Assembly (NCBI GenBank): GCA_020724775.1
Contig: DYGG01000010.1
Coordinates: 32,623-69,544 of the forward strand
Source: Ignavibacterium sp.
GTDB lineage: Bacteria > Zixibacteria > MSB-5A5 > GN15 > PGXB01
Direction of reading: 5' to 3'
Length of the DNA stretch: 36,922 bases
Made by a program: the position numbers and the translations under genes. Shown here piece after piece: positions 7,920-10,683 of this stretch. Within the stretch, counting starts at the first letter, position 1. Every line of letters starts with the position of its first letter. Below the pieces are notes generated by a model that was not told the origin of the DNA, searched no databases, and worked only from the letters and a program-made list of their open reading frames with translations.

Positions 7920-7987
7920 CAGATCTGAGATAATAATTCAGAAGTTTGTACTTGACTTCGACTCAAGTAACCGCAAATTTTGAGACA

Positions 7988-9139
7988 ATGAAAATCGAGT
8001 TCGAATACAAGATTTCCGATATTTTATTAATTCCCGGTCGGGCACTGAAAGCCAAGAAGATTATTGTCGCCTCATTTTTTATTTTAAGCGCGCTTGCCGT
8101 ATATGACCTTTTCACTTATCTGGCGGTACTGATTGACGGGGGGAATCTTTCCGCATTTTATTCGCGGTATGGTTTAGTTCCAGTCGGCGCTATATGGTTG
8201 GCCGGGACAACAGCGAAGATAGTCTACTATTTTGGTATTCTGTCGGGAATCTGGGTACTGATGGCCGGGATGGCGGGGGTTTCGATTTTTGATTTCGAGA
8301 TGATGCGGGGGAATCCATTCTTTACTTCGCTGGCGGCGATAAGATTTGCGCTGAGTCGTTTTGGGCAGATTTTTGTTTCCCATCTGGCAATTGCCATCTT
8401 TCTGGGGTTTATTCTGCTGATAGGGGTTCTTTTCGGGCTTCTGACGCGAATACCATACCTGGGGGATTGGATGTATGCCCTCTTTCTGATTTTCCCCAAT
8501 TTCATTATAGCGATATTCTCCGTTTTGATAATTTTTGTACTGGCGCTCTCCGTTCTGATAATGCCGGCGACCGTCGCCGCCGACCGGCATGGCGAGGCGT
8601 TTAATTCTATACTGGAAATTTTCACGGTGATTACTCGTCAGCCGTTTCGCTGGCTGGGTATCACAGTCTATTCGCTGGTCGCGGCGAAAATAAGCGGATT
8701 TGTTTTTGCCTATTTCTCCTATCGCGCCCTGCAGTTTCTTCAGTTCATAACGCAACTGGGAGGCGGGGAAAAAATACAGGACCTGTTTGCCTCCGGCGCA
8801 GCGCATCTGCCACTGCAGAGTCCGGCTGTCAAGCAACTTACAACGGTATTACCCGGTTTAAATTTTGGTTTTACTGTGGAATTTTTGAATGGCGCCGCGC
8901 AGCCCGGTTTAGCCGGTTATCTAATGGCGCTTTCACTCTTCGGAGTCTTCGTTATTATCGTCGCTTATATCTTCTCTATAATCGCTACGGGGCAATCCGT
9001 CTGTTACGCCTTCGTCAGAAAAGCCCGCGACGGGCATCTTTTCTCCAATGAGAAACCGCTCCAGTTTGAGCCGGAGTGGGTGAATCCTCCCATAAAAGGT
9101 CCTGCCGAGGCGCGTCCGGTGGACCCGACGAAGATGTAA
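7988..9139 (+). CDS. Multispanning membrane protein of unknown function
   Basis: I do not recognise the family. From ATG 7988 the product has 383 residues, with about six to seven hydrophobic segments. They lie near residues 25-45, 65-110, 130-155, 165-205, 225-245 and 325-355, with a soluble charged tail rich in Pro at the C-terminus. The region ADRHGEAFNSILEIFTVITRQPF looks like a cytoplasmic loop between membrane helices, a layout seen in uncharacterised permease-like proteins. An upstream in-frame TTG (7946) would add 14 poorly hydrophobic residues, so ATG 7988 is preferred, although no strong ribosome-binding site is visible. A small inverted repeat (ACTTGA/TCAAGT, 7950-7968) precedes it. 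It ends 12 nt before the microprotein gene. Confidence 0.7.
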   Translation: MKIEFEYKISDILLIPGRALKAKKIIVASFFILSALAVYDLFTYLAVLIDGGNLSAFYSRYGLVPVGAIWLAGTTAKIVYYFGILSGIWVLMAGMAGVSIFDFEMMRGNPFFTSLAAIRFALSRFGQIFVSHLAIAIFLGFILLIGVLFGLLTRIPYLGDWMYALFLIFPNFIIAIFSVLIIFVLALSVLIMPATVAADRHGEAFNSILEIFTVITRQPFRWLGITVYSLVAAKISGFVFAYFSYRALQFLQFITQLGGGEKIQDLFASGAAHLPLQSPAVKQLTTVLPGLNFGFTVEFLNGAAQPGLAGYLMALSLFGVFVIIVAYIFSIIATGQSVCYAFVRKARDGHLFSNEKPLQFEPEWVNPPIKGPAEARPVDPTKM

Positions 9140-9151
9140 GCCCCGATTCTT

Positions 9152-9253
9152 ATGAGTTCCTGGACCTATTTCTGGCTCTTTGTCCCCCCGGTTATTTTGG
9201 TCTTCGTTGGGGTATTTTACTTTTTTTATCAGGGCCGAAAGGACAGACAGTGA
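9152..9253 (+). CDS. 33-residue single-span membrane microprotein, putative symporter small subunit
   Basis: A short reading frame, ATG 9152 to TGA 9251-9253. It begins MSSWTYFWLFVPPVILVFV, continues with an aromatic-rich hydrophobic stretch to YFFYQ, and ends in the basic tail GRKDRQ. This is one membrane helix with an inside-positive C-terminus. Its stop overlaps the GTG start of the sodium:solute symporter (GTGA), implying translational coupling. Several transporter families are known to have ~30-40 residue accessory proteins encoded just upstream of the symporter (for example MetS with MetP, and 'symporter small accessory proteins'). Its topology and position match that pattern; a direct sequence relation is not shown. 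No clear ribosome-binding site precedes it. Confidence 0.6.
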   Translation: MSSWTYFWLFVPPVILVFVGVFYFFYQGRKDRQ

Positions 9254-10683
9254 ATCCGGTCCTGCTCGGTTTTGCCGCTTACCTGGTTACCATATTTGTG
9301 GTGGGATTACTCACGGCGCGCCTGAACAAGACTATTGATGACTATCTGCTTGCCGGGCGCAAACTGGGCATCTGGATTATTACTTTCTCCGAGAGGGCTT
9401 CGGGAGAGTCGGCCTGGTTGCTTCTGGGTCTTCCGGGAGTGGTTTTTGTTTCCGGTCTTTCGGAGTTATGGGTGGCTATCGGATGTACCAGCGGCATTCT
9501 CTTTTCCTGGATATTCATTTCGCGCCGCCTTCGGACGGAGTCGGAATATAATTATGCGATTACAATCCCGGAGTTCCTGGAGCATAAGTTCAATGATACC
9601 TCGCGGTCGATTCGCACCTTTGCCACCATAATTATAGTGTTCTTCTTTGCCTTCTATGTCTCGGCGCAATTTATAGGGGCGGGCAAAGTGCTAAATGCTT
9701 CGTTCGGAATCTCCCCATTCTGGGGGATGCTACTGGGCGCCGCGATAATACTCTTCTACACCATTATGGGTGGCTTTTTGGCGGTCGCCTGGACCGACCT
9801 TTTCCAGGGAGCCCTGATGATTGCCACTCTTGTGATACTTCCCCTGGCGGGACTGATAGAAATAGGAGGTTGGGGCAAGATGGTAGAGCATCTGTCGCAA
9901 TCTCATCCTGATCATCTCTCGGTGCTGGGAGGAAACAGCGGTATATTTGCCGCCTTTTCAATCATCTCGGGGTTGGCATGGGGGCTGGGATATATGGGAC
10001 AGCCGCACTTACTTGTGAGATTTATGGCGATTAATAAGCCGGAAGACTTGCGCCGGGGGACGCTAATCGGCATTACCTGGTCGGTTGTCGCTTTCTGGGG
10101 GGCAATTTTTCTGGGACTGTTTGCCCTCGTCATTTTTGGCAATGGGGAGATATCCGATGCCGAAAAGATAATGCCGATGATGGCGACTCGATTGGTGCCG
10201 GCATGGTTGGCGGGGATTTTGATTTCGGGGGCAATCGCGGCAATGATGTCCACGGCGGATAGCCAGTTACTGGTGACAACCTCTGCCGTCGTTAGAGATA
10301 TTTATCATAATTTAATTAATAGGAAAGCAAGCGACAAGCGACTGGTTTCGCTTTCCAGAGTGATTACTTTCCTCGTGGGATTGCTGGCGATGATAATAGC
10401 CCTGATTTCCCAGGAGTTGGTATTCACCATGGTCGGCTTTGCCTGGTCGGGGCTGGGGGCGGCTTTTGGTCCGGCGATGCTTCTTACACTCTGGTGGCGC
10501 AAAACGACTCGTGAAGGGGTGCTGGCCGGAATGGTGGTCGGGACGATGACGGCTATCATCTGGCATTTTACTCCGCAGTTAAGCGGTCTTGTATATGAAC
10601 TTGCTCCCTCTTATATTCTTGCCCTGATTGCCGTCTGGCTGGTGAGCCTCATTACGGCGCCCAGGGACCAACGCTCCGACTGA
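9250..10683 (+). CDS. Sodium:solute symporter (SSS family, PutP-like)
   Basis: From GTG 9250 the product is 477 residues with about 13 membrane helices. AAAGGA lies 6 nt upstream of the GTG, and the upstream in-frame extension would break into the microprotein and the previous gene, so this start is favoured. Family signatures are GESAWLLLGLPG early, corresponding to the PutP stretch that binds substrate and sodium, and AAMMSTADSQLLVTTSAVVRD, the Na2-site helix of PutP-type symporters. The protein imports a solute driven by sodium; proline or a related amino acid is plausible, but the substrate cannot be set from sequence. It follows the microprotein with a GTGA overlap and precedes the pseudouridine synthase gene. 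Confidence 0.9.
   Translation: MNPVLLGFAAYLVTIFVVGLLTARLNKTIDDYLLAGRKLGIWIITFSERASGESAWLLLGLPGVVFVSGLSELWVAIGCTSGILFSWIFISRRLRTESEYNYAITIPEFLEHKFNDTSRSIRTFATIIIVFFFAFYVSAQFIGAGKVLNASFGISPFWGMLLGAAIILFYTIMGGFLAVAWTDLFQGALMIATLVILPLAGLIEIGGWGKMVEHLSQSHPDHLSVLGGNSGIFAAFSIISGLAWGLGYMGQPHLLVRFMAINKPEDLRRGTLIGITWSVVAFWGAIFLGLFALVIFGNGEISDAEKIMPMMATRLVPAWLAGILISGAIAAMMSTADSQLLVTTSAVVRDIYHNLINRKASDKRLVSLSRVITFLVGLLAMIIALISQELVFTMVGFAWSGLGAAFGPAMLLTLWWRKTTREGVLAGMVVGTMTAIIWHFTPQLSGLVYELAPSYILALIAVWLVSLITAPRDQRSD

Follow-up and report, generated by a model that had tools for sequence, protein, structure and literature searches.

Gene organization at the locus

The window (the whole 36,922-nt stretch of DNA analysed here) carries on its forward strand a gene for a 383-residue membrane protein (7988..9139), a 33-residue microprotein open reading frame running from ATG to TGA (9152..9253), and a gene for a 477-residue PutP-like sodium:solute symporter with a GTG start (9250..10683). 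The translation of 9152-9253 (+) is MSSWTYFWLFVPPVILVFVGVFYFFYQGRKDRQ, followed by the stop codon (*); the product is predicted to form a single helix and shows the motif M..(W/S)T.FW...PP. As the first-pass annotation had described, the small frame overlaps the symporter start by GTGA, in which the microprotein TGA (9251-9253) and the symporter GTG (9250-9252) are interleaved. A putative start signal for the symporter, the Shine-Dalgarno-like GAAAGGA read from the sequence at 9237..9243 (+), lies within the microprotein coding sequence, with the symporter GTG 6 nt further on; the microprotein frame of the window has no clear Shine-Dalgarno sequence before its own start, whereas strong ones are found in many relatives. 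Because the window has this ribosome site within the small gene, and the stop and start codons overlap or abut, the anatomy suggests that the two proteins are made together, and the two genes are probably co-transcribed.

The upstream membrane-protein gene ends 12 nt 5' of the microprotein ATG. Its start at 7988 is the ATG at which a 38% identical relative in locus L011 (family f3) begins, and its frame is open back to a TTG at 7946. Searches of Pfam and NCBIfam with its product gave no match; over 370 residues it shares 38% identity with its counterpart upstream of the microprotein in L011, and C-termini resembling its own were recognized by eye in several other loci. The f3 relative and the similar C-termini suggest that the membrane-protein gene, the microprotein and the symporter may form a three-gene operon in these loci.

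The partner symporter

The symporter of the window matches the SSF family (PF00474) over residues 32-431 with an E-value of 1.1e-86 and 291.7 bits, exceeding the gathering score of 22.8. Its best NCBIfam model is PutP (TIGR02121), at 475.3 bits and under the cut-off of 515.5; among partners in other phyla, that of genome G527 scores 499.7, also below the cut-off, and that of genome G437 scores 682.9, above it. At about residues 46-55 the window symporter reads SERASGESAW, and the same place in the G437 PutP reads SAGASDMSGW. The aspartate of the latter signature, which we take to matter for sodium in the PutP of E. coli, is absent from the former, and the substrate of the window symporter is probably not plain proline. 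In two symporters of family f9, L054 (genome G090) and L058 (genome G093), the open frames are 561 and 548 residues long and match in two pieces, which suggests that they carry an internal insertion.

Conservation within the phylum

A symporter search of 132 genomes from the window's phylum, at E <= 1e-60, found the protein in 64, of which 29 have an orthologous symporter (53-100% identity) and 35 a more distant one (38-43%). The microprotein is encoded directly upstream of the orthologous symporter in 24 of the 29 (profile E 8e-19 to 2e-11). Among the other five, genome G131 has the microprotein on another contig, G005, G119 and G122 are without it, and the contig of G087 starts inside the symporter gene. 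The three genomes that have the symporter without the microprotein indicate that the latter is not always needed. Upstream regions were read for 24 of the 35 distant symporters, and none of them has the motif; the stretch of G018 was too short to be counted among these. Counted over all 132 genomes, the microprotein is present in 25 of the 29 with an orthologous symporter and in 6 of the remaining 103 (Fisher p 2e-17, on pooled counts uncorrected for kinship).

The first-pass annotation had held that its proposal would fail if the short frame were not conserved upstream of orthologous symporters, or if changes were in excess at non-synonymous sites. The frame is conserved in position, in motif and in length: across 37 linked pairs the microprotein has 30-37 residues, and the junction to the symporter start ranges from -4 to +12 nt (for L005, L054 and L055, the conserved start gives junctions of -4, -1 and -1 and the leftmost start -28, -25 and -25). 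There is likewise no excess of non-synonymous change, pN/pS over codons 2-27 being 0.17-0.56 in all 26 within-family linked pairs, which indicates purifying selection on a protein. The overlap of the GTGA type is conserved in part: a 4-nt overlap occurs in some of the family, and the remaining junctions lie between -1 and +12 nt.

In a rapidly built tree of 44 symporters, which excludes L055 and L058 (motif missed by the search pattern) and L028 (cut), the presence of the small frame directly upstream requires four changes. A single gain followed by three losses of the microprotein (at L026, at L027, and at L012 with L015) would fit this number, a loss count that is rough on a tree with long branches at L125, L033, L026, L054 and L027. 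The microprotein-less symporters L026 and L027 sit on long branches (0.7 and 0.58), a pattern that would fit a release from constraint, whereas L012 and L015, also without it, have short ones (0.13 and 0.21) and L054, with the microprotein, is as long (0.67).

Occurrence in other phyla

Searches with the microprotein alone gave 14 matches outside the window's phylum, 13 of them directly upstream of a symporter; they comprise 11 in a second phylum, one in G527, one in G437 (Bacteroidota) and a weak one in G767. A microprotein profile that made no use of the symporter found the family in G735 and in G527 (the sole genome of its phylum in the search), both of other phyla, and in both the frame stands directly before a symporter with the SERASGESAW signature. 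In the phylum of G735 the microprotein occurs in 11 of 20 genomes, every time directly upstream of a SERASGESAW-type symporter, and is preceded by AGGAG-type ribosome sites. When 386 genomes around G735 were surveyed, 14 matches were obtained, namely the same 11 together with G527, G125 and G767.

In 395 genomes from the phylum of a Flavobacteriaceae record there was a single match, in G437, at an E-value of 5.5e-4, which alone would be marginal over that many genomes. The match was accepted because of its position: the small frame overlaps the PutP gene by ATGA. It is likely that the G437 frame is homologous to the others, not merely analogous. Among 247 Bacteroidota genomes a PutP close to that of G437 (E <= 1e-120) occurs in four, including G437, and the small frame is absent upstream of the other three, so that G437 is the only carrier. 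Nor is there such a frame upstream of the Flavobacteriaceae symporter L001 (34% identity, signature SERATGESSW). In G342 (L128), one of those three Bacteroidota genomes, a hydrophobic 43-residue frame that lacks the motif ends 14 nt before a PutP-like open frame. No NCBIfam family matches this frame, which may represent a different small partner or be due to chance.

Several further matches were set aside as chance likeness. They include open frames of 816-846 residues in G110, G111, G113, G119 and G122 (E 9e-4 to 0.09); in the three that were read (G111, G122 and G119) the match falls within the helix at the C-terminus of a large protein, which we take to be ABC-2/GldG-like. The frame of the G767 match (E 1e-3 and 4e-4) overlaps a longer gene encoded in the same orientation, a match in G037 (contig C98, E 7e-4) lies on another contig than that genome's symporter and adjoins none, and a second match in G105 (E 9e-4) covers 13 positions.

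Copies without an adjoining symporter

Relatives of the microprotein that adjoin no symporter were found in seven genomes of two families within one class (G123, G125, G127, G128, G129, G130 and G131), the weakest match being that of G129 (E 4.8e-4). G131, an assembly of about 530 contigs, has the orthologous symporter elsewhere; the other six have no close symporter, their best SSS matches being 26-30% identical. These seven genomes keep the microprotein away from such a symporter, and it is thus not strictly tied to one. The standalone copies are under purifying selection, with pN/pS of 0.12-0.51 in 21 of 21 pairs. In six of the seven (loci L082, L083, L061, L122, L123 and L124) a zinc-ribbon motif, CxxCG.PM, lies 299-420 nt after the stop codon. 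The standalone protein either serves another transporter in trans or has a second role.

Sequence, predicted structure and family searches

In an alignment of 37 members P12 is invariant and F7, W8 and P13 are nearly so, while position 4 is usually W or S; the standalone copy of G129, which is outside that alignment, has SP instead of PP. Conservation falls on the aromatic N-terminal half, where the proline pair lies, and on the hydrophobic stretch behind it. The basic tail noted by the first-pass annotation is less constant: it is net basic in 27 of the 37 symporter-linked members, acidic in nine and neutral in one, and this variation means that a basic tail does not define the family. From the single sequence, AlphaFold predicts one helix from residue 3 to 32 at a mean pLDDT of 90.5, and the best 19-residue Kyte-Doolittle mean is 1.93-2.88 in all 37 members; we infer that the microprotein sits in the membrane.

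The microprotein of the window fits no Pfam or NCBIfam family, and the same holds for twenty aligned members compared with both libraries at E <= 1, the best single-member matches being TadE in Pfam (0.0056) and MerT in NCBIfam (0.064). DUF4212, DUF485, DUF997 and DUF3311 are absent among these matches, and so is the NCBIfam family NF045580 (symport_access, 'symporter small accessory protein'). The latter model (cut-off 35 bits) gave no match at E <= 10 with either P0001 or three further members, and is carried by none of the 132 genomes of the window's phylum and by one of 14 control genomes, Methanosarcina acetivorans. An hhalign comparison of the family alignment with one NF045580 member sequence aligned one column at a probability of 0.4 percent, a weak test against a single sequence. 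PHROGs gave only scattered weak matches (best 0.0054), and a search of solved structures with the microprotein profile returned only CD28, at E 1.1. The suggestion that this is a new type therefore holds at the level of sequence.

Probable function of the microprotein

The small frame codes for a conserved protein that accompanies a single clade of symporters in more than one phylum and for which one helix is predicted. We consider it likely that it is a real single-helix membrane accessory subunit, 30-37 residues long, of a PutP-like SSS symporter, and that it represents a new family. Its gene stands beside an SSS symporter in several lineages: 24 of the 29 genomes with an orthologous symporter within the phylum show the linkage, as do 13 of 14 matches outside it, and the seven standalone copies make this linkage less than exclusive. 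Coupled translation would produce the microprotein in step with the symporter; the most likely action of its helix would then be to pack, in the membrane, on one of the symporter's outer helices, and by analogy with MAP17 on SGLT2 it may aid the symporter in folding, in inserting or in staying active. Binding to the symporter and an effect on transport are what we infer from these observations. Counting against a subunit are the standalone copies, the gaps in G005, G119 and G122, the lack of the frame before L001 and before three of the four close PutP genes of Bacteroidota, and the precedent of CbrX.

CbrX, a 58-residue frame of Pseudomonas putida, has a 17-nt overlap with the gene of the SSS-domain kinase CbrA and is co-transcribed with it, and CbrA synthesis was kept when the N-terminal sequence of CbrX was altered, as expected of translation coupling (PMC6591292). 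By the same token, only the act of translating the present small frame might matter, either by giving ribosomes access to the symporter start or by regulating it, for example through pausing at the proline pair, with no lasting role for the peptide. The nearly invariant proline pair, the overlapping or abutting stop and start codons and the ribosome site within the small gene of the window agree with this, as does the tolerance of CbrX to N-terminal change (PMC6591292). We nevertheless find it very unlikely as the whole explanation, since selection acts on the amino-acid sequence of all 26 linked pairs, and since the protein is retained in seven genomes where no symporter follows it; that these standalone copies persist under purifying selection argues against a pure leader peptide. 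Translation coupling may well coexist with a role as a subunit. Those same standalone copies, six of the seven with the zinc-ribbon motif downstream, are what would favour an autonomous membrane microprotein that acts alone or on other membrane proteins and for which the symporter is one of several settings. We regard this as unlikely: all other accepted matches, 24 within the phylum and 13 outside it, stand directly before a symporter, and since the standalone forms are confined to two families of one class, a single decoupling event may explain them all.

There is next to no chance that the small frame is an annotation artefact or a chance frame and that translation of the symporter really begins farther upstream, in the symporter's own frame. 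In the window that frame can indeed be followed back without a stop to a GTG at 9076; against this, the small frame shows both conservation and purifying selection, which refutes the idea, and the open symporter frames of many orthologues are just 471-490 residues long, which leaves no room for an upstream extension. A wider reading, which we find conceivable but doubtful, is that the subunit is portable and not bound to one transporter: it would have evolved with a SERASGESAW-type symporter, have been carried or inherited across several phyla, have come to precede a true PutP in Bacteroidota and, within a single lineage, have left the symporter and been retained for a different partner, in the neighbourhood of a zinc-ribbon gene. 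If true, this would make it a bacterial counterpart of the single-helix subunits that serve several transporters.

Comparison with known systems

Annotation readily overlooks very short genes, and if a symporter is expressed in the absence of its small partner it may seem inactive. In the literature searched, which for the most part does not include subscription papers, we found no description of this microprotein family. As a kind, the small symporter accessory protein is already known through NF045580, which is likewise tiny (a model of 33 positions) and named as a symporter accessory; the present family matches no family of the libraries searched. Small membrane proteins are also encoded beside SSS transporters in the families DUF4212 (TIGR03647), DUF485 (YjcH), DUF997 (YhdT) and DUF3311, and these partners are larger than the microprotein and of other sequence. 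For DUF3311, a gene near mctP is mentioned in one report (PMC9100948).

Two further comparisons are by description and not by sequence. AcrZ, MgtS, MgtU and other small modulators of 28-49 residues act on the activity or turnover of transporters, as described in a review (PMC10710835), and their transporters belong to families other than SSS. CbrX resembles the microprotein in that it is a small frame overlapping the beginning of a gene whose product has an SSS-type transporter domain (PMC6591292), and differs from it in its 58 residues, its 17-nt overlap and its partner, a sensor kinase.

The closest likeness in mode of action is with human SGLT2, for which MAP17 (PDZK1IP1) is described as a single transmembrane helix that contacts TM13 and is needed for function, its authors preferring a role in localisation and folding (PMC10803289). 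MAP17 is eukaryotic, and we claim no homology. With a partner conserved across a PutP-like clade, natural losses and standalone copies, the bacterial family offers a comparative system for the effect of a single added helix on an SSS transporter, a question that it shares with MAP17 and SGLT2.
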